From contig NZ_JAEDAJ010000002.1 in assembly GCF_016623465.1 (NCBI RefSeq), positions 136,093 through 200,092 of the forward strand: a stretch of DNA of 64,000 nt, written 5' to 3'. Every line of letters begins with the position of its first letter. Position 1 is the stretch's first letter. Under the pieces are notes generated by a model. That model did no database searches. It was given only the letters and a program-made list of their open reading frames with translations, and was not told the DNA's origin. This document shows positions 1,635 to 25,879 of the stretch, one piece after another. Both the position numbers and the translations under genes were made by a program. This DNA is from Brachybacterium halotolerans (lineage in GTDB: Bacteria; Actinomycetota; Actinomycetes; Actinomycetales; Dermabacteraceae).

Positions 1635-1745
1635 AGCTGGGGGCGACTCAGCTCCGCGCGTGCGCGCTCAGAACTCTCTGATCGGATTCGCTGGAAATCG
1701 TGTGAATCGGACATGTAGTCTCACGGGCGAGCACGAGGAGGCACC

Positions 1746-1922: not shown

Positions 1923-2049
1923 CCTCGCCGGAGGGGACGTCGCGGGCTCGCGCGAGAGCCTGTCGACGGCGATCCCGCGGTGGGGAAGAATGGCGGGGCA
2001 CCCCGACCTCGGCCGCGATGCGGCCGGCGCGATGTCCTGAGAGGCGTCC

Positions 2050-3708: not shown

Positions 3709-3816
3709 GGATGAGCGCGCGTTCGCTCGACGAGCGCACGCGTCTGCTACCGACCAGAAACGATAAGATCGCTCCGGTCTGCCCTTCTCCCTCCCCACCC
3801 CCCTCAGGAGGTCTCG

Positions 3817-5070
3817 ATGAGTCCGAATGCTCCCCTCAACACTGTCTGCGTTGTCGGTCTCGGCTACATCGGCCTGCCCACGGCCGCCGTCCTCGCTCAA
3901 GCGGGGAAGCGCGTGATCGGCGTCGACGTGAAGCAGTCGAACGTCGATGCGATCAATGCGGGCACGGTGCCCTTCGTCGAGGAGGGTCTCGAGACGGTCG
4001 TCGCCGGTGCCGTAGCCCAGGGCCGCCTCTCGGCACAGACGGATACGCCCGAAGCGGACGCCTACATCGTCTCGGTCCCCACTCCTTTCAAGGGCGACCA
4101 CGACGCAGATCTCTCCTACATCGAGGCGGCCGCGCGCGGCATCGCGCCGCAGCTGCACGGCGGCGAGCTCGTCGTCCTCGAGTCGACCTCCCCGCCTGGG
4201 GCGACCGAGTTCATGGCCGACGTGATCCTCGGGATCCGGCCCGAGTTCACGAAGGAGCCGAACCTTCCGAACTCCCTCTACTTCACCCACGCACCCGAGC
4301 GCGTGCTCCCCGGCCGCATCATGATCGAGATGGTCGAGAACGACCGCATCATCGGAGGCCTCACCGTCGAAGCCTCGGAGATGAATCGCGACCTCTATGC
4401 GAGCTTCTGCTCCGGGGAGCTGCTGCTCACCGACGCCCGCACCGCCGAGATGGCCAAGCTCACCGAGAACGCCTTCCGCGATGTCAACATCGCCTTCGCC
4501 AACGAGCTGTCGATGATCGCCGACCGCCAGGGGATCGACGTGTGGGAGCTCATCGAGCTCGCCAACCACCACCCGCGGGTCAACATCCTCCAGCCCGGGC
4601 CCGGTGTGGGCGGGCACTGCATCGCGGTGGACCCCTGGTTCATCGTCTCGGCCGAGCGGGAGACCGCGAAGCTCATCGCGACCGCCCGAAACGTCAACGA
4701 CTCGAAGCCCGAGCTGGTGATCTCCAAGGTGCTCGAGCGCGCGAACCGCCTGAAAGACCCCGTGGTCGCCGCGCTGGGCATCGCCTTCAAGGCGAACATC
4801 GACGACCTGCGCGAATCGCCCTCCAAGGACATCACCATCCAGCTCGCGGACCGGCTCGATCACGGCACCGTCCTCGTTGTCGAACCGAACATCGACGAGC
4901 TCCCGAAGGAGCTCAGCGGACGGGACAACGTCGAACTCAGCAATCTCGACGACGCTGTGAGCCGAGCGGACATCGTGCTCCTCATGGTCGATCATGATCC
5001 TTTCAAGCAGCTGGATCGCGAGACCCTGCAGGAGAAGGTCGTCGTTGACACCAAGGGACTGTGGCGGTGA
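3817..5070 (+). CDS. wecC: UDP-N-acetyl-D-mannosaminuronate (UDP-ManNAc) dehydrogenase
   Basis: 417 aa, normal for the family. It oxidises UDP-ManNAc twice with NAD to UDP-ManNAcA, the uronic donor of teichuronic-acid-type polymers. The N-terminal Rossmann motif is VVGLGYIGLPTA; the middle domain carries the catalytic cysteine in GPGVGGHCIAVDPWF. That GGHCIAVDPWF form is characteristic of WecC/MnaB rather than UDP-glucose dehydrogenases, which read GGSCFPKD. The C-terminal UDP-binding domain has GIAFKANIDDLRESPS. A textbook AGGAGGT sits seven bases before ATG 3817. The partner epimerase WecB is at 12770-13963. The next gene starts 34 bases downstream, so the two are probably co-transcribed. 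Confidence 0.93.
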   Translation: MSPNAPLNTVCVVGLGYIGLPTAAVLAQAGKRVIGVDVKQSNVDAINAGTVPFVEEGLETVVAGAVAQGRLSAQTDTPEADAYIVSVPTPFKGDHDADLSYIEAAARGIAPQLHGGELVVLESTSPPGATEFMADVILGIRPEFTKEPNLPNSLYFTHAPERVLPGRIMIEMVENDRIIGGLTVEASEMNRDLYASFCSGELLLTDARTAEMAKLTENAFRDVNIAFANELSMIADRQGIDVWELIELANHHPRVNILQPGPGVGGHCIAVDPWFIVSAERETAKLIATARNVNDSKPELVISKVLERANRLKDPVVAALGIAFKANIDDLRESPSKDITIQLADRLDHGTVLVVEPNIDELPKELSGRDNVELSNLDDAVSRADIVLLMVDHDPFKQLDRETLQEKVVVDTKGLWR

Positions 5071-5104
5071 CGGCCCGTCGAGTGAGTCCGGAAGGCGCCA
5101 GTAC

Positions 5105-7963: not shown

Positions 7964-8964
7964 GGCGAGGAGACAGCACCGGTGCCGGACTCGTGAACGA
8001 CGAACGGCGGTCCGGCCGTGCTGTCCACTCGCGTGATGATCCGAGCGGAGGCCGCCGGGACGTCGCCGGGCGGCTGGATCCCGCTGATGTTCACGGTCCA
8101 TGGAAGGTGGTGAACGGCGGGATCGATCGAGTTCACCTCGTCCCATACGGTTCGATCGGCGACCTCGTTGCCCTCGGCGTCGTACCAGACCACATTGATC
8201 CGGACCCGGGCGGCCGCCGGCTTATCGCTCACGAGCCCAGGCGTGCAGAGATTCCTGCTCTCGCCCCCGTCGCGGGATCCGCCCTCGGTCGTGCACGAGG
8301 TCATCCGGACCGTCTGAGTCAGATCGAAGCCCTTCTTCGGCTGATCGATCCGGCCCTCCGTCACGTATGCGGGACGATTGCGAGACACGAGCTGCGGCTC
8401 CGAGCCCTTCATGTCCAGGAACTCGACTCCAGCGCCCGACGCCGCCGCAGTGAGCCGAGTTCTTACGGTGACCTCGGGCTGAACAGAAGCTGCAGCAGAA
8501 TCGAGCGGGGCACTGACGACGACCCGACAATGCGTCGCTGCCGTGGCGTCGACAAGGGCCTCGCCCTCGAGCGAGCCTCCCCGGGCGAGGACCACGTTCG
8601 TGCTCGTAATCCCGTCGAACACCATGTCCGCGCCGCCACTCGTATCGCACGCAACGCGAGCCGCCACGAGCACGCCCGTGTCGGAGTCGATGGCCGCGGG
8701 CGAAACCTCCACGTGGTACTTGAGCTGCGTCGGACCCTTGGAGTCTGCGGGAACTTCGACTTCCGACATCTTGGTATCGCCGGCCGGGAGGGCGAGCGTC
8801 TGCATGTCCTCCCCCTCTCGCGCAGGTGCAGGCGGCTTCTCCATGCGATCTAGCACGACGACGAGGACGGCGAGCGACAAGACGACGAGCACTGCCACAC
8901 AGATCGCAGCACGTATCGGGAAGGCACGTCCCGAGGTAACTGAATCGCCTCCGCGGCGCATCAT
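7945..8964 (-). CDS. single-pass membrane-anchored protein of polysaccharide locus, unknown function
   Basis: 339 aa from ATG 8964, which overlaps the upstream stop as ATGA and has GGAAGGGG about eight bases before it. There is one N-terminal membrane segment (about residues 17-38, ICVAVLVVLSLAVLVVVL), then an extracytoplasmic region of alternating beta-strand pattern with Cys residues that could form disulfides (ARVACDTSGG, THCRVVV, MTSCTTEGG, RNLCTPG). I do not recognise a named family. It is translationally coupled to the second heparinase-like gene and is the last gene of the run 13963 to 7945, so it probably acts with the polymer enzymes at the membrane. Confidence 0.75.
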   Translation of the reverse strand: MMRRGGDSVTSGRAFPIRAAICVAVLVVLSLAVLVVVLDRMEKPPAPAREGEDMQTLALPAGDTKMSEVEVPADSKGPTQLKYHVEVSPAAIDSDTGVLVAARVACDTSGGADMVFDGITSTNVVLARGGSLEGEALVDATAATHCRVVVSAPLDSAAASVQPEVTVRTRLTAAASGAGVEFLDMKGSEPQLVSRNRPAYVTEGRIDQPKKGFDLTQTVRMTSCTTEGGSRDGGESRNLCTPGLVSDKPAAARVRINVVWYDAEGNEVADRTVWDEVNSIDPAVHHLPWTVNISGIQPPGDVPAASARIITRVDSTAGPPFVVHESGTGAVSSPHSSSE

Positions 8965-10706
8965 CGTGCATCCCCTTCCGAGGGCTCTGGCTTCGTCGTG
9001 CTGACATCGAAAGTCACGGTCCCTACAGTGACCTTCACGCACTCGGCCCGGAACACGATGCTCCAGCACGGAGTGACCTCGCCATCCGACTCACTGCGCC
9101 ATCCTTCCAGTGGGTCCGGCCAGCCGAGGGCGACGTCGGGGACACGCTCGAGCGCGTCATGCCCTTGGATCCGGAGAACCACACCTGCGTCCTCCCGACA
9201 CATCTCGACCACCCCGTCCACCATGCGCATCGAGAATCGACCGTCAATCAGGAATCGCGACTCCATTCGATGAGCCTGGCCGTCGTGCAGTCGCACCGTG
9301 TCACGGACCGTGAGTTTGCGCCCCGGTCGGAAGCCGATCAGCCGGCGGTGCGTCCACGTCCCATGAGGCGCTGTCCCAGAGAGGGTGAACCGTCCGGAGC
9401 GGAGCCCTGCCTGTACGTCTCCTCCGCCATAGGGCTTGCGGTGCACGCGGTCATGATCAACACCGTCCAGCAACACCGTGCTGTGGGCCCGTGTGGACTC
9501 GATGTACTGCCGCCTGGGGTCCGCGTAGTAGAAACCATTGCGTCGGAGATCGCTGTCCCGCGGCAGCACGGCCCCGTACCCGAATTTGCCCCCATCGACG
9601 AGAATATTCACGAGGCCCTCTGACCAGCACAGCGAGAGGTCATCTGCGTGCTTGTGCGAACGGGAATGAAATCCCGCATGGAAGGCGAGGTAGGACTCGC
9701 CCCCCGGCTCACTCGCGGAATCCTCAGATGGGCTTCGCACGAACGCCCACCCGGAGTCGGGAAGAGCCTTCCATTGTCGGCGTGCCCGTTGGCCCTCCCC
9801 GCCACGACTAAAGACGAATCTGGCATTCGGGGACATCGGGGGGGCCGTCGGGACCGGCAGGCGTTCCGGGGTGGTGTCACCGATCTCCACCAGATTCCCG
9901 TCCGGTCGGTACATCCACGACAGCGCCTCGTACGCCCCGCGGAGTGGAGACCCGAGCGCCGGGTGCCCACTGGGGACGAACCTCTTGAAAACCGAGTGGA
10001 ACCCCAGAAGCGTCATGCGCTGGTGAGCAGGCGAATGTTCCACGTGGCCGCCGTCGGGCATGAATTGCTGGGAGAAGAGCGCAAGGATCTCGTCGATCAC
10101 CGCGGCTGCTTCTCCCGAGGACTCGCCGACGGCATCATCGATGACGGCGATCTCGGCCAGAGCCGCGAGCACGAAGAGCGACTTGTTCGAGATCGTCGCA
10201 CAAAGCAGGCTCGATAGGCGCTCCCGATGTCCGTTCAGGAGGTGCGGGATCATCCGGGCGATCGCCTCCCCGTGCTGCGAGTGGTCTCGCAGTGCCCGCG
10301 CCGCAACCCCCAAGATGCGCGGAACGCGAAGCGACGTCGACAGGTCATACCAGCACATGCTCGAGTCCGGCGGATCGGACTGCGCGAATTCTCCCCAGGA
10401 GAGAAGCACGCTCGCCAGATAGTCGAGATCAGCCGGCTCACGGTCACGGTCGTACGCGAGCAGAACGGCATCGAGGAACTTCAGGGACTGCAACTGCGAT
10501 GCGAACGACCTGCTCAGGGCGGAAGAGTCCGCCCAATCGAAGGATGGTGCCAGGGGAATCGGCGACTCAGCACCGGGGGCCCATCCAGAGAGGGCCACGT
10601 CCTGCCCCGAACGAGGTGCATCGCGCCCCTTGTCCATACTGTGCCACCCCATGACGGGCGGGATGCGTGCGAGTAGGGCCGCACGGAGCTCAGGCGCCTC
10701 ACCCAA
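8961..10706 (-). CDS. heparinase II/III family protein
   Basis: 581 aa from TTG 10706. An in-frame stop lies just upstream and AGAGG sits seven bases before the TTG; ATG 10652 is the fallback start. No signal peptide, so probably cytoplasmic. Motifs follow the heparinase II/III plan: SNKSLFVLAALAE, then MPDGGHVEHSPAHQRM (family proteins usually have a Tyr-His pair here; Ala-His is seen) and, in the beta domain, HSRSHKHADDLSLCW with VDGGKFGYG. It pairs with the longer homologue at 5105-7963 and is translationally coupled to the membrane protein downstream (ATGA overlap). Known relatives cleave uronic-acid polysaccharides; an intracellular polymer-editing or quality-control role is my inference. 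Confidence 0.78.
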   Translation of the reverse strand: MGEAPELRAALLARIPPVMGWHSMDKGRDAPRSGQDVALSGWAPGAESPIPLAPSFDWADSSALSRSFASQLQSLKFLDAVLLAYDRDREPADLDYLASVLLSWGEFAQSDPPDSSMCWYDLSTSLRVPRILGVAARALRDHSQHGEAIARMIPHLLNGHRERLSSLLCATISNKSLFVLAALAEIAVIDDAVGESSGEAAAVIDEILALFSQQFMPDGGHVEHSPAHQRMTLLGFHSVFKRFVPSGHPALGSPLRGAYEALSWMYRPDGNLVEIGDTTPERLPVPTAPPMSPNARFVFSRGGEGQRARRQWKALPDSGWAFVRSPSEDSASEPGGESYLAFHAGFHSRSHKHADDLSLCWSEGLVNILVDGGKFGYGAVLPRDSDLRRNGFYYADPRRQYIESTRAHSTVLLDGVDHDRVHRKPYGGGDVQAGLRSGRFTLSGTAPHGTWTHRRLIGFRPGRKLTVRDTVRLHDGQAHRMESRFLIDGRFSMRMVDGVVEMCREDAGVVLRIQGHDALERVPDVALGWPDPLEGWRSESDGEVTPCWSIVFRAECVKVTVGTVTFDVSTTKPEPSEGDAR

Positions 10707-10733
10707 CGACGGGCCTCTGGTCGTTCACGGTCA

Positions 10734-12773
10734 TCAGCCTGCCGTCTCCGACACGCGTCCGAGGCGCGAGTACACCTCGACGTATGCCGGAACGTTGGCG
10801 TCCCACGAACGCGCGGCACGCACCCAGTCCGCACCTGCGGCAGACATCCGCTCCTGCTCACCGTCGGTCGTGACGATTCCTCCGATCACGCTCGCCAGGT
10901 CGTGGTCGTCCCCCGCGGTGAACGTCGCGGCCGCGCCACGGGCATCATCCGCGATCTCCTTCAGCGCAGCAACATCCGAGAGCACGACCGCACGGCCGGT
11001 CGAGAAGGCTTCGAACGGCTTGAGCGGCGTCACGAGCTCGCAGACACGGGCAGGTTTCCGGGGCACGACGAAGACGTCGATCTGGCCGTAGAAATCGAGG
11101 ATACGCCTATGAGGAATCCTCCCCGGCATAATGACCCCGTCGATCCCGAGCGACTCCACGAGCCGGCGCAGATGATCGAGATGCGGCCCATCGCCGACGA
11201 CGAGCAGCTTGAGGCCCGTACTGACCTTTAGCCCGTGCTCCTCAGGGTGCCGCTGGAGCCGGGAGAACGCGCGGATCAGAGTGCCGATACCCTCGTACTC
11301 GACGATCGACGAGATGTACCCAACCACGGCATCATCCGGCTCAATACCGAGTTCGCGCCTGAGATCGGGGTCCGCCTCCTGCCGAGGAAAGGCCCCGCTG
11401 TCCACAGCGTTCGGGACGATGGAGATCGCCCCCTCCCCGTACGTGCCGGGAGCACTCTCGTCGACGATGTGCTGTCGCATCACGCGGGCGAGAGTGAAGA
11501 TGTGGTCCGCCTCCTCGCGAACCCGCGCTTCGGCTCCTCGGCGGAGTGCATAAGCCTCTGGCTCACCGAAAACCTCGAAGATGGCGAAGGGGTCATCCCA
11601 ACCAGCCATCTGAGCAGTGCGCGAGAGCCATGACTCCTCCCAGAACCCGCGCGCCTCGTAGACCACGGGAATCCCAGCGGCGCGCCCCACGTGAAGCGCG
11701 ATGGCCGCATTGATGAAGTCTGCGTGTGCATGGATCACGGACGGCCGCGACTCGGAGACCCGATCCATCAGGCCCACCACATTCTGCTCCAGCCAGCCGC
11801 GCCATCCAACGGCAGTCCGTCGCGGGCCCGCCAGGAACGTGACGGGCACCTGATCGTCTTCGACCCGCACGACCGAGTCGAACTGCTCGCGTCCGCCACC
11901 CGCCTGGGCGACGATCTCGCACGGGACTCCGGCCCGCCCCAGCGCATCGACGGTGTAGCGGGTACGCAGGGTGTAGCCGGTCTGGGTATCGGGAAGCGCC
12001 TTGCCCACAAAGTGCAAGACGGGACCCTGAGGATCGCGCAGGTCCGACGACGGCAGCACGGGCATCAGAGCGCGCACATCCTCGTACACATAGAGTTCTT
12101 CGCGCAGCTCACGTGCCACCTTGATGTCGCGCTCGTTCCCGAACCGATCGGCGATGTAATCCATCAGCCGCGAGGCGAGCCGATAGTAGCCGTGCACGCG
12201 GAAGAATTTGTAGGCCTCGCGCACCTCCGTGAGCTTGCTTTCGTCGAGGATTCCATCCCATTCCTCGATGATCGGCTTCGCCTCAAGGAACCGCTTGTCC
12301 TTGAGCAGTCGCTGGAGTAGCTCCGTTGCCCGATGACGCCGCATGACCTGCTTCAAGGGGATGTCATTGCGAGCGGCAAGTCGCACGATGGCGACGTGAC
12401 TGTCGATAATGCTTGCCGTGGCGTCGCGCAGGCCGCTGGGACCGTTCCCCAGCAGGGTCTCCAACCGCTCGAGGGACACGAAAGGACCGACGCCGCCCTC
12501 CTGGGCACCGGACTTCTTGGGCGCGCTGTCGACGGCCTCCTCCAACTGGGCCTCGAACCGTCGCCTGATGTTGTTCAATGCCGTGGCCTGCTCACGGAGG
12601 AGAACTCGCAGAAGCAAGCCAGCCGCCACCCCGGCGACGATACCGAGGACCACGGCGACCAGCACAGAACCCACTGGACCCGCGATAGAACCTGCGATGA
12701 CGGCCGAGAGGACCGTCGACGCGACGAACACGATCCCCACGGACAATGCGAGAACGTACTTCCTGGAAATCAT
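10734..12773 (-). CDS. membrane-associated GT4 glycosyltransferase with long N-terminal helical region
   Basis: 679 aa. Two hydrophobic segments at residues ~8-28 and ~33-58 are followed by a charged, helical region to about residue 230. The rest is a GT-B family 4 glycosyltransferase: it opens with VLHFVGKALPDTQTGYTLRT, has HAHADFINAAIA, and the donor-binding half contains SIVPNAVDSGAF, VVGYISSIVEYEGIGTL, LLVVGDGP and the C-terminal TPLKPFEAFSTGRAVVLSD, where a Glu contacts the nucleotide-sugar. The start overlaps the upstream wecB stop by four bases (ATGA), so translation is coupled. The product at 15957-17819 has the same overall plan (DTQTGYTLRT versus HTQSGYSLRT), so the two are paralogues likely adding successive sugars of the same polymer. 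Confidence 0.85.
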   Translation of the reverse strand: MISRKYVLALSVGIVFVASTVLSAVIAGSIAGPVGSVLVAVVLGIVAGVAAGLLLRVLLREQATALNNIRRRFEAQLEEAVDSAPKKSGAQEGGVGPFVSLERLETLLGNGPSGLRDATASIIDSHVAIVRLAARNDIPLKQVMRRHRATELLQRLLKDKRFLEAKPIIEEWDGILDESKLTEVREAYKFFRVHGYYRLASRLMDYIADRFGNERDIKVARELREELYVYEDVRALMPVLPSSDLRDPQGPVLHFVGKALPDTQTGYTLRTRYTVDALGRAGVPCEIVAQAGGGREQFDSVVRVEDDQVPVTFLAGPRRTAVGWRGWLEQNVVGLMDRVSESRPSVIHAHADFINAAIALHVGRAAGIPVVYEARGFWEESWLSRTAQMAGWDDPFAIFEVFGEPEAYALRRGAEARVREEADHIFTLARVMRQHIVDESAPGTYGEGAISIVPNAVDSGAFPRQEADPDLRRELGIEPDDAVVGYISSIVEYEGIGTLIRAFSRLQRHPEEHGLKVSTGLKLLVVGDGPHLDHLRRLVESLGIDGVIMPGRIPHRRILDFYGQIDVFVVPRKPARVCELVTPLKPFEAFSTGRAVVLSDVAALKEIADDARGAAATFTAGDDHDLASVIGGIVTTDGEQERMSAAGADWVRAARSWDANVPAYVEVYSRLGRVSETAG

Positions 12774-13963
12774 CGGGCGTCTCCCCTCTCGACCAGGGCC
12801 GTGAACTCCGGGACCTCCATTCCCGATGAGAGGCTGAACAGCTGGTGCAGCGCCGCAATGGTGCGCTCCGAGGCCCGTCCATCCCCGTAGGGGTTCACAG
12901 CGTTCGCCATCCCCTTGTACGCCTCCTCCGAATCAAGGAGCAGCGACACCTCATCGACGAGCCGCTGCCGGTGTGTACCGATCAGCTTCACGGTTCCCGC
13001 GAGCACGGCCTCAGGACGCTCCGTGTTCTCGCGCATCACGAGCACGGGCTTGCCAAGACTGGGAGCTTCCTCCTGCACTCCCCCCGAGTCGGTGAGAACG
13101 ACATCGGCGATCCCGAGCGCACGAGTGAACTCTGCGTACGCGAGCGGTTCGATGAGGTAGACGTTCTCGACCCCTTCGACCGCCGGCCGGATTGCGGCAC
13201 GGACCTTGGGATTCTTGTGGATGGGGAAGACCACTGTCAGATCCGGGTACTTTCGGGCCAGCTCTGCGACGGCTTCTCCGATATCCTTCATCGCCGTACC
13301 GAGATTCTCTCGTCGGTGAGCCGTCACTAGGAGAATGCGACCAGGATCGCCGTCGGCACGCTTTTTCTGAAGTCTCTCTAGACGCTCGTCTTCGAAGTGG
13401 ACGACAAGATTCGAATTCGCGAACTGGAGAGTGTCGATCACGCTGTTACCTGTGACCACGATCGCGTTCTCACTGATGTTCTCGCGGGTGAGATTGGACT
13501 TCGACGTCTCTGTGGGTGCGAGGTGGAGGGCTGCAATCTGACTCGTGAGCTTACGGTTCGCTTCCTCTGGAAACGGCGAGTTGATGTCCCCGGATCGCAG
13601 CCCCGCCTCAAGGTGCACGACGGGGATCTGACGGTTGAAGGACGCCACCGCCGCGCCCATCACCGTCGACGTATCACCTTGCACGATCACAGCATCCGGG
13701 GCTTCCTTCTCGAGAAGCCCATCGATTCCCGAGACCACCTTGGCAACAATCTCGTTGAGGGTCTGCCCGGCGCTCATGATGTTGAGATCATGATCTGGAA
13801 CGATTCCGAAGATGGCGTTTACCTGATCGAGCATCTCACGATGCTGACCGGTCACCACGATAATGTTCTCGAGGGCGCTATCGGCCTCGATCGCCTTGAT
13901 GATCGGAGCGACCTTGATCGCCTCGGGGTGAGTGCCATAAACGGTCATGATACGAAATGCCAT
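12770..13963 (-). CDS. wecB: UDP-N-acetylglucosamine 2-epimerase (non-hydrolysing)
   Basis: 397 aa, family-typical length. It interconverts UDP-GlcNAc and UDP-ManNAc, feeding WecC. Catalytic and binding residues known for E. coli WecB are present: Asp in VQGDTST, Glu in HLEAGLRSGD, Glu in PFPEEANR, His in TAHRREN, and the C-terminal DSGGVQEEAPSLGKPVLVMR. One oddity is the N-terminal YGTHPEAIK, where the family nearly always has GTRPEAIK. AAAGGA stands before ATG 13963. It is first in the tightly coupled run wecB, GT4, heparinase-like, membrane protein. With wecC on the other strand it completes the UDP-ManNAcA pathway. Confidence 0.93.
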   Translation of the reverse strand: MAFRIMTVYGTHPEAIKVAPIIKAIEADSALENIIVVTGQHREMLDQVNAIFGIVPDHDLNIMSAGQTLNEIVAKVVSGIDGLLEKEAPDAVIVQGDTSTVMGAAVASFNRQIPVVHLEAGLRSGDINSPFPEEANRKLTSQIAALHLAPTETSKSNLTRENISENAIVVTGNSVIDTLQFANSNLVVHFEDERLERLQKKRADGDPGRILLVTAHRRENLGTAMKDIGEAVAELARKYPDLTVVFPIHKNPKVRAAIRPAVEGVENVYLIEPLAYAEFTRALGIADVVLTDSGGVQEEAPSLGKPVLVMRENTERPEAVLAGTVKLIGTHRQRLVDEVSLLLDSEEAYKGMANAVNPYGDGRASERTIAALHQLFSLSSGMEVPEFTALVERGDAR

Positions 13964-14020
13964 TGTGAATCCTTTGGAGGTCCGGGTATGCCGATGCGGG
14001 GATGAATATCGGGAGAGGAG

Positions 14021-15076
14021 TCAAGGGCCAGATGGGTCGTGCAGGTTGTTCGAAGTCTTCGCCTCCGCGGAGTCAGCCCGATTCGACCCCGGATCTTTTC
14101 CCCGCCGAATGTGCCGCGGCGCTCGCCTCGGATGCGTTGTGGTCCTCTGCCCTCGATGGAAGCCTGTCAGATCCTCTTGCGCGTCCCTCTCCTGTGCGTC
14201 CCTGCCTTCACGTCGGGCATCCATGAGCAGGCCGTTGGCGACGGAGGTGTTCCCCTGTGCGAGGTTGTGCGCGAACCAGCGATATTTCCGCGCGACCTCA
14301 ACGGCATCACCATCGAGCACGACGTGGCCGCGTTCCATCCAGATCGCACGCGAACACATGTTCTCGATGGTTTGCGCCGCATGATTGACGAGGAATACCG
14401 TTCCCGCTCTTTCGAGCAGGTCGTCCATCGCCCGCCGGGAGCGCTCCATGAAGCTGGCGTCACCGGTGGAAAGCGCCTCGTCGATCATTAGAATCTCAGG
14501 GTCTGCAGCGAGGGATATGGCGAACTTCAGGCGTGCACCCATGCCAGATGAGTAGGTTCGCATCGGCAGATCGATGGCATCACCGAGCGCCGAGAGCTCC
14601 ACCACGTCCTCGAAGATGTCGTCAGCCTGCTGGGGGGACAGACCCATGGCCAGAGCTCCGAGCCTCACGTTCTGTGCCCCAGTGAGATCGGGGAGGAGAG
14701 CAGCACTCACACCGAGCAACACCGGCTTGGCGGACGTGAGGACAGTGCCGGAATTCGGCGCCTCCAGCCCGGCCAGGACACGCAGGAGCGTCGATTTACC
14801 TGAACCATTCCGTCCGATGATCCCGATGAACTCTCCCGAGCGCGCCTCAAACGAAACGCCGCGAACAGCACCGACGGAGACCCGCTGAGTTCGCGGGGTC
14901 AGCCCGATGAGTCCCCGTTTCCTGGAGTGGTCCGTCCTGTTCACGTTGTAGCGGACGCGAAGGTCGTGTGCGGCGACGGTGAGAGGGGATGATTCCGGCG
15001 CCGTCCAGCGAGACGCCTGGGCGTTCTCGGCCTCGGCATCTGCACCGTCGCGCGGCTCAACGCTGCTCGTCGCCAT
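14021..15076 (-). CDS. polysaccharide ABC exporter, ATP-binding subunit (TagH/Wzt-like)
   Basis: 351 aa from ATG 15076, chosen for GGGGAGG six bases upstream; it overlaps the permease 3' end by 20 bases. ATPase motifs: Walker A IIGRNGSGKST, signature YSSGMGARLKFAISLA, Walker B EILMIDEALS and H-loop LVNHA. The N-terminal VRYNV...RTQRVSVGAVRGVSFEA region and single-permease partner are typical of TagH/RfbE/Wzt proteins that export undecaprenyl-linked teichoic or O-antigen-like polymers. The C-terminal ~75 residues are Arg-, Asp- and Asn-rich and look disordered; this is not the folded carbohydrate-binding domain of chain-length-sensing Wzt proteins. It should form a complex with the permease at 15057-15953. 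Confidence 0.9.
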   Translation of the reverse strand: MATSSVEPRDGADAEAENAQASRWTAPESSPLTVAAHDLRVRYNVNRTDHSRKRGLIGLTPRTQRVSVGAVRGVSFEARSGEFIGIIGRNGSGKSTLLRVLAGLEAPNSGTVLTSAKPVLLGVSAALLPDLTGAQNVRLGALAMGLSPQQADDIFEDVVELSALGDAIDLPMRTYSSGMGARLKFAISLAADPEILMIDEALSTGDASFMERSRRAMDDLLERAGTVFLVNHAAQTIENMCSRAIWMERGHVVLDGDAVEVARKYRWFAHNLAQGNTSVANGLLMDARREGRDAQERDAQEDLTGFHRGQRTTTHPRRAPRHIRRGKDPGSNRADSAEAKTSNNLHDPSGP

Positions 15077-15953
15077 ACGTCGCCTCCCCACGCCAGAAGA
15101 ATACGAATCCGATGATCAAGATCCCCACGCACCAGACTGCGAGGATGACCCAGGATGCCACCGTCGGGGCCGTACCATCCATAAGGACCCGTCGATACAT
15201 GTGGAGAAGCTGGTATATCGGATTTGCCTGAATGATCGCACCAGCGACCGGATGGGTGAGGTAATTGTCGATCGGGAAGATGACGCCTGAGCCGTACATG
15301 AGCACACGAGAGAGTACCGTTATCACCTGCGAGACGTCCGGAAGAATGAAGCCCACCCGTGACATCAACAGCGATACCCCAAGATTGAGCATGCACTGCA
15401 TCAAAAAGATCGGGATGACCAGCAACCAGGACAGCCGGGGAATCTCATGATTCGGCAGCACAACGATCATAGCTAGCATCACCACAACGGTGAGCACCAT
15501 CTGCATCGATTCTCGCAATTGTGCAGATATAGGCAGTGCAGCACGCGGAAAGGAAAATGCGCGGATCATCGGCTTGCCGACCCGCAGCGTTCCTGGACTC
15601 TGACTCAGGCTCTGCATTGTCGAACGGAACATGAGTACACCGATGATGATGTAGGCCGTGAAGTTGTCGATGCCGCGGTCCGCCTTCAGGATCATCCCGA
15701 AGATGACGAAATACATCGCCGCGTCGAACAGTGGGCGGAGGATCAACCAAAGGTTCCCGAGCCGGTTCCTGCTGTTCTGCAGGGTGATTCGATGCCTCGA
15801 GTCCATCCAGATGAAGTGCCGGCGCTCCCACAGGTCCGAAATGTACTTCGGCAGACTCGGTCTGACCCCAACTGGGCCCAGCGCCGACACATCGAGTCCA
15901 CGACGCTCGAGGTCTCGACGGAGCTGGGGAGCCGTTCTCACGTCAGTGCGCAT
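15057..15953 (-). CDS. polysaccharide ABC exporter, permease subunit (TagG/Wzm-like)
   Basis: 298 aa with about six membrane segments. The cytoplasmic N-terminus ends in SRHRITLQNSRNRLGNLWLILRP, the amphipathic gate-helix region typical of ABC-2 polysaccharide exporters, followed by AAMYFVIFGMI and later segments. The C-terminal loop GVIFPIDNYLTHP...NPIYQLLHMYRRVLMDG is the family signature for Wzm/TagG. It starts three bases after the stop of the GT4 gene upstream and overlaps the ATPase gene downstream, so all three are one transcription unit. Predicted job: move the lipid-linked ManNAcA-containing polymer across the membrane, after which LCP proteins such as those at 19462-21773 attach it to peptidoglycan. 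Confidence 0.9.
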   Translation of the reverse strand: MRTDVRTAPQLRRDLERRGLDVSALGPVGVRPSLPKYISDLWERRHFIWMDSRHRITLQNSRNRLGNLWLILRPLFDAAMYFVIFGMILKADRGIDNFTAYIIIGVLMFRSTMQSLSQSPGTLRVGKPMIRAFSFPRAALPISAQLRESMQMVLTVVVMLAMIVVLPNHEIPRLSWLLVIPIFLMQCMLNLGVSLLMSRVGFILPDVSQVITVLSRVLMYGSGVIFPIDNYLTHPVAGAIIQANPIYQLLHMYRRVLMDGTAPTVASWVILAVWCVGILIIGFVFFWRGEATYGDEQR

Positions 15954-19241: not shown

Positions 19242-19461
19242 CCGGTTCCGGCTATGGGGGAGAGAGGGCGTGCGCACAGGATATTCGCGCACGAGCACGC
19301 GCATGGGCCTGCGTCGCGCACAGGATCGGAGATCATGGCCAGGACAGGCTAACCCTTTCGTCGCGGCGCGCCGGTTCCGGTCCGAACGAATCCGCGTCCC
19401 CGCCGCACGCTCCCGTAGAGTCGCCGTTGACCCGCCGCCCCACCACTCCTCGAGAGGCAGC

Positions 19462-20493
19462 ATGAGCGACGTCCCCGACACCGACTCCGATGCCGGAGCG
19501 GGCCCGACTCCCCCACCGCACCGTCGGCGCCGACGCCGGCGATCCGCTCTGATCGCGCTGCTCGTGGTCGGCTGCCTGGTGGCCGTCGGAGGCCTGGTCG
19601 TGGGACGCTACGTCCACTCCCTCGACTCCGCGTACCAGAAGCGGACCGTGGTGAGCCTGGATCGAGGCGCCTCCGACTCGGAGCGCGCCGCGAACGGCAG
19701 CGGGCAGAACATCCTCCTCCTGGGATCGGACGAGCGCAGCGGCGACGAGGCTGCGAAGGAGGGTGTGAGCGGTCAGCGATCCGACTCGATGATGCTCGTC
19801 CACATCCCCGAAGACGGGTCCGAGGGCTATGTGGTCTCGTTCCCCCGCGACCTCTACGTCCCGATCCCCGGGCAGGGAGAGGACCGCATCAATTCGGCTC
19901 TCGCCTACGGGGGTCTGCCCCTCGCGGTGAGCACTGTCGAGGACTACACGGGTGCTTCCATCGACCACGTCGCCCTCATCGACTTCGACGGCATCGAGGG
20001 ACTGGTCGACACCCTCGGCGGCGTCGACGTCACGATCCCCGAGTCCTTCGAACAGCACGGCATGACGTTCACCGAGGGTGAGCAGCATCTGAACGGCAAG
20101 GAGGCGCTGACCTTCGCGCGCGAGCGCAAGGCGTTCAGCGACGGCGACTTCCAGCGCAATCGCGATCAGCAGGCGCTGCTGAAGGCGATCGCGACGAAGC
20201 TCATCAGCCGGGACACGCTCTCGTCCCCCACGAAGATGAAGGACTCGATCGAGGCGCTCTCGCCGTACCTGACCACTGACGATGGCCTGGACACCCGCGA
20301 ACTGGTGCATCTGGGACTGTCGAACCGGAACCTCACCAGCAGCGATCTGCACTTCCTCCCGGCTCCGCACGGCGGTCCCACCACCGCGCCGGGCGGAGCG
20401 AGCGTCGTCTCCTCGGACGACGAGGGGATGGATCAGCTCAGGACAGCCCTGAAGGAGGACACCATGGACGAGTACGCAGCCGCGAACGGCTGA
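19462..20493 (+). CDS. LytR-CpsA-Psr (LCP) family cell-wall polymer ligase
   Basis: 343 aa from ATG 19462, with GAGAGG just upstream. A short cytoplasmic tail rich in Arg (HRRRRRRR) precedes one membrane helix (about residues 29-50), then an extracytoplasmic LCP domain. Signature residues are in NILLLGSDERSGD, RSDSMMLVHI and FPRDLYVPIPGQGEDRINSALAYGG; these Arg/Asp positions bind the pyrophosphate of lipid-linked polymer in characterised LCP enzymes. Also ARERKAFSDGDFQRNRDQQ. The family transfers teichoic-acid-like polymers from undecaprenyl phosphate to peptidoglycan. A close paralogue follows at 20763-21773. Divergent from the GT/exporter run, so this is the likely attachment step for that polymer. 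Confidence 0.92.
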   Translation: MSDVPDTDSDAGAGPTPPPHRRRRRRRSALIALLVVGCLVAVGGLVVGRYVHSLDSAYQKRTVVSLDRGASDSERAANGSGQNILLLGSDERSGDEAAKEGVSGQRSDSMMLVHIPEDGSEGYVVSFPRDLYVPIPGQGEDRINSALAYGGLPLAVSTVEDYTGASIDHVALIDFDGIEGLVDTLGGVDVTIPESFEQHGMTFTEGEQHLNGKEALTFARERKAFSDGDFQRNRDQQALLKAIATKLISRDTLSSPTKMKDSIEALSPYLTTDDGLDTRELVHLGLSNRNLTSSDLHFLPAPHGGPTTAPGGASVVSSDDEGMDQLRTALKEDTMDEYAAANG

Positions 20494-20762
20494 CGGGCCA
20501 CGGATCGAGCCCCGTCGGCTGCTATTTCTCCGCCCCTGCGGTCAGTCCCCACCACCTGCTTCAGACAGAAAGCGATGACGATCGTCAGCGGCGTCACGGC
20601 ACACACAGCGAGGCAGCGCCCCTCGAGAGGCACGCGCCACCGCCGAGCGATCCGGCGCAGGACACGAGATCCTCACGATCACGACAGCCGCCCCGGAACC
20701 GGGGCTCGCCTACCGTAAGGTCACCTCGTACACGTCCCGCCTGCTCCTCGAGAGGCCCCGCC

Positions 20763-21773
20763 ATGAACGACTACATCGACCTGCCCTTCGAGGACGAGGG
20801 CGGGGCGGCCACCGCGCCCCGCCCTCGGCGCCGCACCGCCCTGATCGTGCTGCTGATCGTGCTGGCCCTGATCATCGCCGGCGGGATCGTGGCGGGAACG
20901 TACCTGAACTCGCTGAAGAACGCGTACGAGAAGCACACGACGGTCACCCTCGACGACGACACCGATCTCACCGGCGAGGGCCAGAACATCCTCCTGCTGG
21001 GTTCGGACAAGCGCAGCACCGAGGACGCCAAGGCTGAAGGGGTCAGCGGGCAGCGATCGGACACGATCATGCTCGTGCACATCCCCGCCGACGGCGGGGA
21101 GGCGTACATCGTCTCCTTCCCTCGCGACCTCTACGTCGACATCCCCGGCCACGGGAAGGACCGCATCAACGCGGCCCTCGCCTTCGGAGGCCTCCCCCTC
21201 GCGGTGACGACCCTCGAGAACTACACGCAGGTCCCGATCGACCACGTCGCCCTCATCGACTTCGACGGCATCAAGGCGATCGTCGACTCCCTGGGCGGGG
21301 TGGACGTGAACATCCCGAAGTCCTTCACCCGCGACGGGAAGACCTTCACCCAGGGCACCCAGCACCTCGACGGCGACGAGGCCCTCGTCTTCGCCCGCGA
21401 GCGCAAGTCCTTCGCCGACGGCGACTTCCAGCGCAACCGCGACCAGCAGCAGCTGCTCAAGGGCATCGCGGTCGAGTTCATCAGCAGGGACACCCTCACC
21501 TCCCCCGGCAAGCTCAAGGACGCGGTCGAGTCCATCTCCCCCTACCTCACGACGGACGACGGGCTCGACGCCGGCACCCTCGTGAAGCTCGGCTGGGACA
21601 ACCGCAGCCTGCGCGGCAGTGACCTGCACTTCCTCGAGGCACCTCATGGCGCTCCCACCACGACGTCCGGTGGAGCGAGCGTCGTCTCCTCCGACGAGTC
21701 GGGCATGGACGAGCTGCGCAAGTGCCTCAAGGACGACACCATGGAGCAGTACGCGGCCGATCAAGACGGCTGA
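20763..21773 (+). CDS. LytR-CpsA-Psr (LCP) family cell-wall polymer ligase, paralogue
   Basis: 336 aa. Layout is the same as the preceding gene: an acidic N-terminus, an Arg patch (RPRRR), one membrane helix (about residues 25-48), then the LCP domain with NILLLGSDKRSTEDA, RSDTIMLVHI, FPRDLYVDIPGHGKDRINAALAFGG and ARERKSFADGDFQRNRDQQQLL. Similarity to the 19462 protein runs the full length, including the tail (PHGAPTTTSGGASVVSSDESGMDELR), so this is a tandem duplication. GAGAGG stands before ATG 20763. The 269-base spacer between the two contains a short GC palindrome and a TAAGGT hexamer at 20716-20721, so it may have its own promoter. Confidence 0.92.
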   Translation: MNDYIDLPFEDEGGAATAPRPRRRTALIVLLIVLALIIAGGIVAGTYLNSLKNAYEKHTTVTLDDDTDLTGEGQNILLLGSDKRSTEDAKAEGVSGQRSDTIMLVHIPADGGEAYIVSFPRDLYVDIPGHGKDRINAALAFGGLPLAVTTLENYTQVPIDHVALIDFDGIKAIVDSLGGVDVNIPKSFTRDGKTFTQGTQHLDGDEALVFARERKSFADGDFQRNRDQQQLLKGIAVEFISRDTLTSPGKLKDAVESISPYLTTDDGLDAGTLVKLGWDNRSLRGSDLHFLEAPHGAPTTTSGGASVVSSDESGMDELRKCLKDDTMEQYAADQDG

Positions 21774-21828: not shown

Positions 21829-23505
21829 ATGGGGATCACTCGCATTCCCCAGGCGCTGCTGCACTCCCTGACCTCTCCCCACGACGGGCATCTGGGCAAG
21901 CAGATCCTCTTCTTCGTCTACGTCCTGACGTTCAGCGCCCTGCTCGGGATCGTCCAGCCCACGGTCATGCTCGGCCTGGAATACCTCTTGGGACTCGCCG
22001 CGATCGCCGCCCTGACGGTCCTGACCTCTCTCGCGTACCCGCGGGTGTCGAGCACGCACCTAGCGTGGATTCTGCTGCCGGTCGCCGACGTCCTCGCCGT
22101 GGCGCCCCTGCGCGACGCCTTCCGGGTGGAGGCCGGCACCGTCACCCTCTTGGCCTTCGTGCCCGCGCTGTGGGCCGCATACTGCTGGCGCTACCTCGGC
22201 GCCGCGCTCGCCACCGCGGCCGTGACGTTGGCTTTCGCTGTCCCGACACTGCTGCGCGAGTATCCGGAGATCGATGGCACGCTCATCGTGAGGACGCTGA
22301 TCATCCTGCTTGTGGTGCTGCAGGTGACTTTGCTGGTCGCCATGGCGACGAGCAGGGCGGCGCGTGAGCGAGCGCGCACCGCGGAGGCACTCCGGGAACG
22401 CACCGATCTGCTCTGCCGCACCGCTGATCAGGAGCAGCTGCTCACCAACGTGATCGACAGTCTGTCGGTGGGCATCGTGGTCGTCGACAAGGACGGTCAC
22501 GACGTGCTCATGAACAGCGCCCAGCAGCAGCTGCACGCCCTTGCGCTCCCTGTGGGCGATCCCGACCCGTCGGAGGACCGGCTCGAGGTGCGCTACCCCG
22601 AATCCTCCATCCCGATCCCACCGCGCGCACGACCCGTGCGCCGCGCCGTCGAGCGGGAGACGTTCACGAACTACCTGGTGTCGCTCGGTCCACTCGACGG
22701 TCCGCGGCGCACGCTCTCCACCGCCGCACGCCAGATCGTCGACGTGCGCGGAGAGCGCGACGGTGCCGTGATCCTCTTCTCGGACGTCTCGGACTTCGTC
22801 GAGGTCGCGAAGCGGCAGCGACAGAGCACCGCCGATGTCTCCCACGAGATGCGGACCCCGCTGACCTCGATCCTGGGGTACCTCGACCTCACCATGGAGG
22901 CTGAGGAACTCCCCTCGACCGCGCGCGAGCATCTCGAGGTCGCCGAACGCAACGCGGAGAAACTGCTGCAGTACGTCGAGGACCTGTTGGAGGGCCTCTC
23001 CGTCTCTCCCGACGAGGACTCCGTCGCTCTCGTGCCCGCGCGGCTCGGCGACCTCGCCCGCGAGACCTGCGAGACCCTGAGGCCCCGGGCCGTCGAGGGC
23101 GAGATCGATCTGCGCTGCACGGTCGAGACCGAGGCCTCGTTGCTGCTGGACCCGCCGAGGATGACGCAGGTGCTCAGCAACCTGGTCTCCAACGCCCTCA
23201 AGTACACACCCGCCGGCGGCCGCGTCGAGGTCCGGGTCTCCGAGGCGCCTGAAGCCCTCGAAGTGCGGGTCTCGGATACCGGGATCGGAATGGCACCGGA
23301 GGAGCAGGCGAACCTGTTCATGGAGTACTACCGCACCACCGCGGTCCGCGAGGGAAGGATCCCCGGTTACGGGCTGGGGCTCTCGATCACCCAGCGGATC
23401 GTGCGCGCGCACGGAGGCCAGATCAGCGTCCGCTCAGCTCAGGGCGAAGGATCGACGTTCACGGTGCGGCTGCCACGGGAGAGACTGCTGGCGCCGCGAC
23501 GCTAA
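21829..23505 (+). CDS. membrane sensor histidine kinase
   Basis: 558 aa from ATG 21829 (GAGGAAGG nine bases upstream). Residues ~25-175 form five or six membrane helices without a large external loop, suggesting it senses a membrane or intramembrane signal. A short coiled region (ATSRAARERARTAEALRERTDLL) leads to a PAS-like module (~210-320), then HisKA with the H-box TADVSHEMRTPLTSILGY (His339) and a HATPase domain with N-box NLVSNALKYTPAGG, G1 VSDTGIGM and G2 GYGLGLSI. No DNA-binding response regulator is adjacent. The nearest partner is the stand-alone receiver protein at 25466-25879, with a glycosyltransferase bearing an HPt-like tail between them. Confidence 0.9.
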   Translation: MGITRIPQALLHSLTSPHDGHLGKQILFFVYVLTFSALLGIVQPTVMLGLEYLLGLAAIAALTVLTSLAYPRVSSTHLAWILLPVADVLAVAPLRDAFRVEAGTVTLLAFVPALWAAYCWRYLGAALATAAVTLAFAVPTLLREYPEIDGTLIVRTLIILLVVLQVTLLVAMATSRAARERARTAEALRERTDLLCRTADQEQLLTNVIDSLSVGIVVVDKDGHDVLMNSAQQQLHALALPVGDPDPSEDRLEVRYPESSIPIPPRARPVRRAVERETFTNYLVSLGPLDGPRRTLSTAARQIVDVRGERDGAVILFSDVSDFVEVAKRQRQSTADVSHEMRTPLTSILGYLDLTMEAEELPSTAREHLEVAERNAEKLLQYVEDLLEGLSVSPDEDSVALVPARLGDLARETCETLRPRAVEGEIDLRCTVETEASLLLDPPRMTQVLSNLVSNALKYTPAGGRVEVRVSEAPEALEVRVSDTGIGMAPEEQANLFMEYYRTTAVREGRIPGYGLGLSITQRIVRAHGGQISVRSAQGEGSTFTVRLPRERLLAPRR

Positions 23506-23613
23506 GCTACCGGTCATCAACTCCCTCGGCGGATGTCGAGCGAGGCGCACTGGCGTCGCCCCGACCGCAGTCGTCCGCGGCGGCCCGCACGCTCCGGTGA
23601 AAGCGAAAACCGA

Positions 23614-25503
23614 ATGCGCACGTTCCTGACGATCCTCCTCGCCCTCCTCTTCGCCGCGGCGGCGGTGGTGGTCTTCGGACTGTCCGGCGTCTTCGGCACG
23701 TTCGGGGAGGTGATCTGGCGCGATGTCGCCGTTCTGGTTCTCACCCTCGTCGCCGCGTGCGCCCTGACGTACGTCGCCCTGCTCCTGATGACGTTCCTGC
23801 GCGAGATCCGGAACCCGCGCAACACCCCGGGCGACCCGGGATCCCTCCAATGGCATCTTCTGGTCCCCTGCCGGGACGAGGAGAACGTGATCGCCGAGAC
23901 CGTGTCCTCCGCGCGCGCCTCCTTCGCCGACATCCACGTGTGGGTCATCGATGATGCGAGCGAGGACGCGACCGCGGACGTGGTGCGCGGCCTCATGGTG
24001 TTCGACGACCACGTGCACCTGATCTCGCGCATCGCCCCCGAAGCCCGCACCGGAAAGGGCGATGCTCTGAATGCCGCATACCGGATCGTCTCCGAGCACG
24101 TGGGCGGGAGCCCGCAGGAACGGCACCGGATCGTGGTCGGCGTCCTCGACGCCGATGGCTTCCTCTCCGACAATGCACTGGCGATGCTCTCCGGTCCCGA
24201 GGCCTTCGGGGACGAGGAGGTCGGCGCGGTCCAGCTCGAGGTGTGGATGAAGAACCGCGGCGACCGCCGCCCGCGCCCCGCAGACGGCCGCTGGGCGAAC
24301 GCAGTCGGTCGCTTCCTCGTGCGCATGCAGGATCTCGAGTTCCGCACCACGAACTCGGCGATGCAGGTGCTGCGCACGCGCACCGGCACCGTCGGCATGG
24401 GCGGCAACGGCCAGTTCACACGCCTGACCGTGCTGGATGCCCTCACCGAGGAGCGCGGCAAGCCCTGGGGCCGCAAGCTCTCGGAGGACTACGAGCTCGG
24501 GCTGAACATCCTGCAGCTGGGCATGCACAATCACTACAGCCGCGAGGCGCACGTCTCGCAGGAGGCGCTGCCGTTCACCCGGCGCCTGATCACCCAGCGC
24601 ACCCGCTGGGCGCAGGGCAACATGGAGTGCGCCTCGGCGCTGCCGGGACTGCGGCGCAGCGGCCACCTGAGTGCGTCCGGGCTGCTGGAGATCCACTACT
24701 TCATGCTGCAGCCGGCGATCATGATGCTGAACCTGATCCTGATCCCGCTGCTGCTGGTCTACGGTGCCGCGCACGAGGGCGCCGGATTCTGGACGGCCTC
24801 GACACTGCTCACCGCCGTCCTCGCCGCGGTGTTCTTCCTGATCCTCCCCTACGCGGTATGGGGCGCTGTCTACCGCAGGGTGACCGATCACGAGATCTCG
24901 TGGCCCATGGCCGTTGCCCTGGGACTGTGTAATCTCGTCTACGTCTACCTCACCTACGTCTACTACGCGCGAGCCGCTTGGCGCGCCGTCACGGGGCGCA
25001 CGGGATGGTCCAAGACCCGCCGCAACGCCGACGGCCGCCGCGCTGCCGACGTCGCGCTCGGCGCAGAGCTCGAGGGTCTGCCCCTGATCCTCGTGGCACA
25101 GCTCGAGGAACTGGGCGCGGAGCTCGACGGTCGCCCGGATCTGGGCATCGACTTCGTCTCCGCCTGGGCGGTCAACTGGCCGACGCGCCTGGCACGCCTC
25201 GAACGCTCCCTGGCCGCCGAGTCACCGCTCGCCTCACGCGACGCGATCGGCAGCATCCGCGTCACGTCGTCGATGGTGGGTGCGTCGCGACTCGAACGCG
25301 TCGCGACGGACCTCGACGCGCAGATCGAGAACGGCGACCTCGTGGGCGCGCGAGATCAGCTTCCGCTGATCACCGCCGTGGGCCGCGACACCGTGAACAC
25401 TCTGCGCAAGGAGGTCTCGGTGCGGCGAAAGCTGCTGCAGACTCCGCATCCGCAGTCACCGTCGATCATGCAGACGCAGATGGTCCCTGCTCGTCGCCGC
25501 TGA
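23614..25503 (+). CDS. processive GT2 glycosyltransferase with C-terminal HPt-like domain lacking its His
   Basis: 629 aa from ATG 23614 (membrane helix follows at once; ATG 23533 would add 27 residues). Two N-terminal membrane helices, then a GT-A domain of the cellulose/hyaluronan synthase type: HLLVPCRDEENVI, WVIDDASEDATAD, DxD in VLDADGFLSD, catalytic SEDYELGLNI and QRTRWAQGN (QxxRW). Three or four helices follow (~360-470). The last ~130 residues align with HPt domains: FVSAWAVNWPTRLARLERSL ... VGASRLERVATDLDAQIENGDLVGARDQL. Where HPt domains have AHTLKGS, this protein has IGSIRVTS, so the phospho-accepting His is Gly546. It sits between a sensor kinase and a receiver protein, so phospho-signalling may control polymer synthesis. 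The product is unknown. Confidence 0.8.
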   Translation: MRTFLTILLALLFAAAAVVVFGLSGVFGTFGEVIWRDVAVLVLTLVAACALTYVALLLMTFLREIRNPRNTPGDPGSLQWHLLVPCRDEENVIAETVSSARASFADIHVWVIDDASEDATADVVRGLMVFDDHVHLISRIAPEARTGKGDALNAAYRIVSEHVGGSPQERHRIVVGVLDADGFLSDNALAMLSGPEAFGDEEVGAVQLEVWMKNRGDRRPRPADGRWANAVGRFLVRMQDLEFRTTNSAMQVLRTRTGTVGMGGNGQFTRLTVLDALTEERGKPWGRKLSEDYELGLNILQLGMHNHYSREAHVSQEALPFTRRLITQRTRWAQGNMECASALPGLRRSGHLSASGLLEIHYFMLQPAIMMLNLILIPLLLVYGAAHEGAGFWTASTLLTAVLAAVFFLILPYAVWGAVYRRVTDHEISWPMAVALGLCNLVYVYLTYVYYARAAWRAVTGRTGWSKTRRNADGRRAADVALGAELEGLPLILVAQLEELGAELDGRPDLGIDFVSAWAVNWPTRLARLERSLAAESPLASRDAIGSIRVTSSMVGASRLERVATDLDAQIENGDLVGARDQLPLITAVGRDTVNTLRKEVSVRRKLLQTPHPQSPSIMQTQMVPARRR

Positions 25504-25879
25504 CGCCTCCGGCATTCTGAGCACCCTCGCCGACGATCCGACGCAGGTCCTCGCGCAGCTGGCGCGGACGGAACGGCTTGGTCAGGTACTCGTCCGCGCC
25601 CGCTTCGAGCCCGAGCTGCGCATCGCGTGCCTGGGAGCGGGCGCTGAGCACCACGATCCTTCCCGAGACGGCGGCGCGAGACTGCCGCACGACCTCGTAC
25701 CCCTCCATGTCGGGAAGTCCGATGTCGACGAGAGCCAGGTCCGGCGGCTCGGTGGTGAGCAGAGCGATTCCCTCGCTCCCCGTCGCCGCGGAGGTCACCG
25801 TGTACCCCTCCTGATCGAGCACCACCTCGAGCAGTCGACGGATGTCGTCGTCGTCCTCGATGATCGTCGCTGTCCCCAT
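25466..25879 (-). CDS. stand-alone receiver-domain response regulator
   Basis: 137 aa, a single REC domain with no output domain. Phosphorylation-site residues are intact: acidic pocket EDDDD (residues 8-12), Asp52 in LALVDIGLPDMEG, Ser in VVLSARS and Lys in YLTKPF. GGGGAGGA lies before ATG 25879. Its last 38 bases overlap the 3' end of the convergent glycosyltransferase gene. CheY-like proteins of this kind act by binding a partner. The kinase at 21829-23505 and the HPt-like tail of the adjacent glycosyltransferase are the obvious candidates; this is inference from gene order. The tail after residue ~118 is Gly/Ser-rich and disordered. Confidence 0.9.
   Translation of the reverse strand: MGTATIIEDDDDIRRLLEVVLDQEGYTVTSAATGSEGIALLTTEPPDLALVDIGLPDMEGYEVVRQSRAAVSGRIVVLSARSQARDAQLGLEAGADEYLTKPFRPRQLREDLRRIVGEGAQNAGGVSGDEQGPSASA

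Follow-up and report, generated by a model that had tools for sequence, protein, structure and literature searches.

A GT2 membrane synthase with a histidine-less HPt-like tail is linked to a sensor kinase and a lone receiver, suggesting its direct control by a two-component system

How might a membrane glycosyltransferase be controlled when its gene lies between those of a sensor histidine kinase and of a receiver without output domain, and when its C-terminus looks like a histidine phosphotransfer (HPt) domain that has lost its histidine? This question is raised by a locus of Brachybacterium halotolerans located in a stretch of 64,000 nucleotides, called here the window. A preliminary description of this DNA had given the gene order as kinase, GT2 synthase and convergent REC-only protein, and both the order and the coordinates were borne out on re-examination. 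The features of the locus are the following:

21829..23505, + strand: membrane sensor histidine kinase (Pfam PAS_4 3.4e-6, HisKA 5.9e-15, HATPase_c 1.5e-30)
22843-22845, + strand: kinase H-box His339 (H-box motif)
23614..25503, + strand: GT2 membrane synthase with C-terminal pseudo-HPt, 629 aa (Glyco_tranf_2_3 1.3e-23)
25093..25425, + strand: pseudo-HPt helical bundle, residues about 494-604 (AF2 model, structural matches, profile matches)
25249..25251, + strand: codon of Gly546, at the HPt histidine position (alignment column)
25466..25879, - strand: lone receiver (REC), 137 aa (Response_reg 4.6e-26)
25724-25726, - strand: receiver phosphoacceptor Asp52 (receiver alignment)

The receiver and synthase genes are convergent, and their 3' ends overlap tail to tail by 38 bp. 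The closest named relative of the synthase is that of Brachybacterium endophyticum (80% identity). Two tandem LCP-family (LytR_cpsA_psr) genes with about 64% mutual identity are present directly upstream of the kinase gene (window 19438-21773), a position occupied by one LCP-family gene in B. endophyticum. Further away (window 36-15953), a capsule-type gene set encodes glycosyltransferases, a UDP-sugar dehydrogenase, a UDP-GlcNAc 2-epimerase, two proteins with Hepar_II_III_C domains and an ABC-2 type exporter pair.

The kinase starts with a hydrophobic region of about six membrane segments (judged by eye), followed by the PAS_4, HisKA and HATPase_c domains. Its H-box reads HE[LM]RT in all 25 kinases aligned, and the HExxT form is typical of bifunctional kinases. 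The acidic residues 9-11, Asp52, Ser79 and Lys101 are invariant in the 26 lone receivers compared. Among the 18 measurable of the 23 receivers of the genome, that of the window is the only one with fewer than 80 residues after the receiver domain. The two proteins qualify as a two-component system with a lone receiver, i.e., a HisKA/HATPase kinase and a receiver that has kept its acidic residues and lacks an output domain.

The catalytic part of the synthase (residues 44-473 only) is recognised by the NCBIfam model NF053846, 'XrtP-associated glycosyltransferase' (529.3 bits for a cut-off of 520); the last ~150 residues fall outside this model. Foldseek matched the synthase with BcsA (5ej1, E 6.6e-12) and with hyaluronan synthases, and BcsA was also found by profile search (6e-7). 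The catalytic motifs DAD, ED and QRTRW are invariant across 26 aligned synthase rows. The full-length AlphaFold2 model has a mean pLDDT of 86.9, with a dip at residues 466-476, between synthase and tail. In its membrane GT2 fold and catalytic motifs, the protein resembles the processive synthase type (BcsA or hyaluronan synthase), in agreement with the processive polysaccharide synthase proposed initially, the activity itself being inferred. The enzyme probably builds a polysaccharide; polymer synthesis and secretion are likewise inferred, without biochemistry.

Small membrane proteins with sub-threshold exosortase matches (5e-4 and 9e-4) adjoin two GT2 homologues that lack the tail (L067, 7800-8339; L068, 7847-8482). 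These neighbours fit the XrtP name, which suggests that the NCBIfam label may mislead for tail-bearing members. We detected no PF09721 match at E <= 0.001 in the genome of the window, but this model could miss an exosortase, since the neighbours just mentioned obtain only such low scores. A literature search under the XrtP name turned up a single, unrelated paper.

Taken alone, the tail of the window (residues 471-629) matches the Pfam Hpt family PF01627 only weakly (17.5-17.6 bits, below the cut-off of 24.6), and relatives were therefore gathered. Nineteen of 21 fused tails match PF01627 at E <= 1, the best at 4.3e-6. Tail profiles also find histidine-keeping HPt domains of large multidomain proteins, with E-values down to 1.7e-8 in one genome and of about 3e-11 in a limited number of retrieved loci. 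The histidine of these genuine HPts aligns with Gly546, without any gap around that position.

AlphaFold2 folds the tail with confidence into a bundle of helices (mean pLDDT 89.6). In a Foldseek search with this model, the first 22 rows are HPt or CheA P1 entries by title, with the exception of 4euk. The first 23 rows obtained with VIA (Z 15.9 to 11.8) comprise 22 entries titled as HPt and again 4euk, titled only 'Crystal structure', which we take to be an HPt complex. HptB of Pseudomonas (7c1i) is among the best structural matches (TM 0.87 over target, Z 15.7). The Foldseek E-values are modest (best 3e-3), and helical bundles can score high against unrelated bundles; a gap of 4.4 Z units separates the best HPt rows from the first unrelated one (Z 11.5), but the weakest HPt row (11.8) barely exceeds it. 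As judged from profiles and a predicted structure, the last ~130 residues of the synthase are homologous to HPt domains. The preliminary description had considered the tail HPt-like along its length, with the histidine replaced by Gly546, and would have been refuted by a structure prediction without a bundle. The profile matches to genuine HPts, the alignment and the model uphold it on all three points. Chance likeness between a helical tail and HPt domains was ruled out by the profile matches, the PF01627 matches in 19 of 21 tails and the structural matches.

The loss of the histidine is general. The corresponding column contains A 14, G 11 and V 1 in the fused tails, with no histidine in 26, for H in 11/11 of the genuine HPts aligned. 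Of the 26 tails, 25 retain the basic residue at H+3 (R 24, K 1, A 1), and the HPt glycine at H+4 is replaced throughout (V 24, A 2). We infer that this conversion of a big-small residue pair into a small-big one reshapes a docking face. Among the helices of the tail, conservation is highest in the one surrounding the missing histidine, with a relative entropy of 0.74 of the mean in fused and standalone copies alike.

Are the three genes associated beyond B. halotolerans? Tail-bearing homologues were identified in 8 of 38 genomes of the genus, a ninth being severed by a contig end, and in 12 of 396 genomes of the order. A scan of our collection yielded 27 loci: 20 tail-bearing, one cut off and 6 tailless. 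The 20 tail-bearing loci belong to Brachybacterium, Brevibacterium, Occultella, Enteractinococcus, Kocuria, Arthrobacter, Nesterenkonia, Rothia, Aestuariimicrobium and Zimmermannella. A lone receiver gene adjoins the synthase gene in all 26 tail-bearing loci, window included, and a kinase gene is nearby in 25 of them. GT2-HPt fusions with an adjacent receiver thus occur across several genera, and the observation that would have spoken against the initial proposal, a tail with no kinase or receiver nearby, did not come true. By neighbour-gene clustering, the 14 tailless homologues have neither kinase nor lone receiver; one of them (L066) has a weak receiver match (33%, 3e-9) about 6.6 kb away, and the contig of another (L096) ends two bases past the match, leaving the downstream side unseen. 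These linkage counts exclude G030 (L061/L094), in which the contig ends inside the GT2 gene. The 3.4 kb contig L081 carries part of the kinase only; it is counted in the 26 but lies outside the 25 clustered tail loci.

The layout of the window is kept in 23 of the 26 loci, and L060 and L080 are rearranged with the genes still together. In Arthrobacter sp. H35-MC1, kinase and receiver are on the other side and divergent; in G012, the kinase is downstream of the receiver, and the two halves of the GT2 gene do not share a frame. Kocuria coralli is the one case without a kinase beside the module; its closest kinase is encoded on a different contig and spans two frames. If shadow frames are disregarded, no other neighbour cluster is present in more than 7 of the 25 tail loci. 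A small-protein cluster is common to 10 of the 14 tailless homologues, and the two members inspected gave sub-threshold exosortase matches. That kinase and lone receiver travel with the synthase across genera suggests that the sensor probably controls polymer making directly and not via genes.

A close lone receiver (at least 65% identity) is encoded in 9 of the 38 genus genomes, 8 of which also have the synthase. The Brachybacterium-type genome G003 encodes a kinase of the module type and a 68%-identical lone receiver in abutting genes (L203 6953-9025, stops 8650/8651), with no GT2 gene between them and no GT2 relative in the genome at E <= 0.001. This pair counts against a strictly obligate unit; it may have another role or may have outlived a lost target. 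In its receiver, the motif that is DIRRLLE in nearly all the others has become DIRGLLE, an isolated case.

The tail is also related to a family of standalone histidine-less HPts in Micrococcales, which makes the finding broader than the preliminary description. The tail profile matched in 45 of the 396 order genomes, many of the matches being in small open frames. We examined 24 standalone regions (four of G051 and twenty chosen mainly by rank, lower-ranked places being left out). A response regulator is encoded near the standalone copy in 17 of them, and a kinase of the type found in the window in 14; one region has the kinase only, and in six both are missing. All 17 regulators combine Response_reg and Trans_reg_C domains and are therefore OmpR-type (L123, L126, L157-L161, L163-L169, L171, L175 and L176). 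The histidine column of 25 standalone copies contains L 20, I 3, R 1 and V 1 and no histidine, partly through selection, because these copies were picked by their likeness to the tails. Two of five standalone copies tested exceed the Pfam Hpt cut-off without the histidine (32.0 and 37.0 bits vs 24.6). In G037 (L058 / L176), a single kinase gene is flanked by the GT2 module on one side and by a regulator with a standalone pseudo-HPt on the other, as though it served two outputs. In L173 (3813-5546) and L126 (4592-6292), the gene next to the standalone pseudo-HPt encodes a separate GT2 protein (about 375 aa); by eye, both loci also have a neighbour resembling a glucanase.

In the HPt tree, from which two of 63 HPt-like rows were left out (<75 residues), the 26 fused tails form one clade (98/92) beside the standalone pseudo-HPts, so that the 26 loci do not correspond to 26 independent events. 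When this tree is rooted on genuine HPts, standalone copies surround the fused-tail clade, with weak deep forks. The lone receivers also form one clade (100/100), and a split with support 100/96 separates them and the regulators encoded near standalone copies from 17 other receivers of the genome of the window; this tree has few columns and long branches. The simplest history involves one fusion of a pseudo-HPt to the synthase and the loss of the DNA-binding part of the regulator. We lean slightly towards a wider interpretation: histidine-less HPts would be a dedicated class of receiver readers in Micrococcales, acting as standalone proteins on OmpR-type regulators, one of which became fused to a synthase while the regulator lost its DNA-binding domain and the kinase family was kept, a transcriptional system being thereby rewired to enzyme control.

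If the lone receiver now reads the tail, its constraints could differ from those of its relatives. We compared relative column entropies between the 26 lone receivers and 18 regulators, one of which (L080) comes from a GT2 locus and was not shown to lie beside a standalone copy. Helix alpha1 is much more constrained in lone receivers (0.48 vs 1.30 in regulators), helix alpha5 much less (1.40 vs 0.59), and alpha4 is less constrained too (1.31 vs 1.06). Each position of the motif DIRRLLE is kept in at least 25 of the 26 lone receivers. Residues 9-11 (0.00 vs 1.09) and the loop 79-82 (0.24 vs 1.26), near the active site, are tightened as well, so the effect is not limited to alpha1. Conservation has left alpha5, the output helix that belongs to the usual OmpR dimer face, and now falls on alpha1, the docking helix, and on the active-site loops. 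In a receiver serving the kinase only, alpha1 should vary as it does in related regulators; its unusual constraint is what is expected if the receiver reads the tail. A mirror-tree analysis of 24 loci did not set the tail-receiver pair apart (partial r 0.31, vs 0.43 between the receiver and the GT2 catalytic part), so that co-inheritance is enough to explain the raw correlations.

We consider it likely, although well short of certain, that the three genes form a module whose two-component system controls the polysaccharide synthase through direct contact between the proteins. Upon a signal, the membrane kinase would phosphorylate the lone receiver at Asp52, and, given its HExxT-form H-box, it may also dephosphorylate it. 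The receiver, having no output domain of its own, would use helix alpha1 and the beta5-alpha5 loop to dock on the pseudo-HPt bundle of the synthase, where no phosphate would be passed to a histidine. Docking, or release on phosphorylation, would then change the activity of the synthase. Everything from docking onward is inference: in the absence of a complex model and of binding or activity data, we infer the contact, which state of the receiver takes part in it, whether synthesis is turned on or off, and which polymer is made. What the computations show is that the tail is homologous to HPt domains and shares their fold, that it lacks the histidine, that the genes are tightly linked, that standalone pseudo-HPts and their nearby regulators are kin to proteins of the module, and that constraint on the receiver has shifted. 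Of the gating of the synthase by a pseudo-HPt, as first put forward, the fold, the linkage and the constraint on receiver alpha1 lend support to the general scheme, and binding, receiver state and sign remain inferred.

Other explanations have to be weighed. The tail could remain a working phosphotransfer domain that uses another residue, as part of an ordinary phosphorelay. Atypical HPts do exist, such as Spo0B and ChpT, which are built by dimerisation, according to the part of the source available to us (PMC11481889). The alignment of 21 tails, however, has no conserved histidine column, the tail of the window has a single histidine, located towards the C-terminal end where model confidence is low, and the glycine of HPts at H+4 has gone as well, which leaves this explanation hardly tenable. 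In the genome of the window, no HPt exceeds the Pfam cut-off, the single weak match (19.8 bits) being in a 292-aa protein. A canonical phosphorelay was ruled out by this absence together with that of a conserved tail histidine column.

Alternatively, information could flow in the reverse direction, the tail capturing the receiver (or the dimerisation domain of the kinase) and thus titrating or tuning the pair, with its real output elsewhere. Such a design would account for G003, which retains kinase and lone receiver without the synthase, and for G037, in which the kinase adjoins an OmpR-type regulator with a standalone pseudo-HPt, a second output at hand; DivL, in the portion of the paper accessible to us, provides a precedent for a domain of this kind serving as input sensor (PMC4211667). 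Against it, the tail is fixed to the synthase in 26 of 26 fused loci, with no other gene recurrent beside most of them, and the synthase is missing in just one of nine genus genomes with this receiver; we regard reversed flow as unlikely. We attach equally little weight to a third explanation, in which the HPt bundle is kept only as a structural or oligomerisation scaffold, with kinase and receiver linked for some other reason. The 14 tailless homologues manage without the tail, and without kinase or receiver, the helix that lost its histidine is the most conserved one, OmpR-type regulators are present near standalone pseudo-HPts in 17 of 24 loci, and alpha1 of the receiver is constrained, all of which speaks against a mere scaffold, even though the histidine is gone, binding data are lacking and the mirror-tree distances show no preference for the tail-receiver pair.

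Control of the synthase by direct contact with the receiver, the reading that we prefer, would modify the usual view in which two-component systems are gene switches and membrane polysaccharide synthases are targets of c-di-GMP. Here, a kinase and a lone receiver appear to be wired straight to the synthase via an HPt-like domain without the residue that would accept phosphate. The relatives suggest a route for this rewiring, which would start with a regulator and a standalone pseudo-HPt and end with a receiver stripped of its output domain and a fused pseudo-HPt. The module suggests a testable mechanism by which a Gram-positive cell could start or stop making polymer at once, and provides an entry point to the small pseudo-HPt genes scattered over Micrococcales genomes.

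The preliminary description knew of no system with this design, and our literature search found no description of a pseudo-HPt-tailed synthase either, within a coverage of titles and abstract openings from which most subscription journals are absent. Each part has a precedent, in two-component systems with direct output or in post-translationally controlled synthases, so only the combination and the standalone family appear to be new. The NCBIfam family NF053846 has in common with our synthase the catalytic part, which is over its cut-off, but its model leaves the tail uncovered, and exosortase-like neighbours were seen beside tailless homologues. In Caulobacter, HfiA inhibits the predicted glycosyltransferase HfsJ in response to signals, as far as the accessible part of the source goes (PMC11481889), and is similar in being a signal-responsive protein acting on a predicted glycosyltransferase. 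HfiA differs in being a dedicated inhibitor, not a receiver. To our knowledge, HfsJ has no HPt tail. The plant pseudo-HPt AHP6 has also lost its histidine and still engages His-Asp signalling; it is a free inhibitor of the phosphorelay, whereas the pseudo-HPt described here is fused to an enzyme. BcsA, which is controlled post-translationally by c-di-GMP through its PilZ domain, and other c-di-GMP-gated synthases share with our protein the synthase fold and the post-translational control of a processive GT2 enzyme, a second messenger and PilZ there taking the place of the putative receiver and pseudo-HPt tail here.

By analogy, the nearest precedent in logic may be the DivL-DivK pair of Caulobacter, in which DivL has a tyrosine for the histidine and DivK is a lone receiver. 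A domain of DivL without kinase and phosphatase activity reads phosphorylated DivK via the docking interface, according to the part of the paper available to us (PMC4211667). In both cases, a receiver would be read by a His-to-Asp signalling domain through the docking interface of response regulators, but DivL is a histidine-kinase-like dimer acting in a kinase circuit, whereas the reader predicted here is an HPt-type bundle fused to a membrane synthase.
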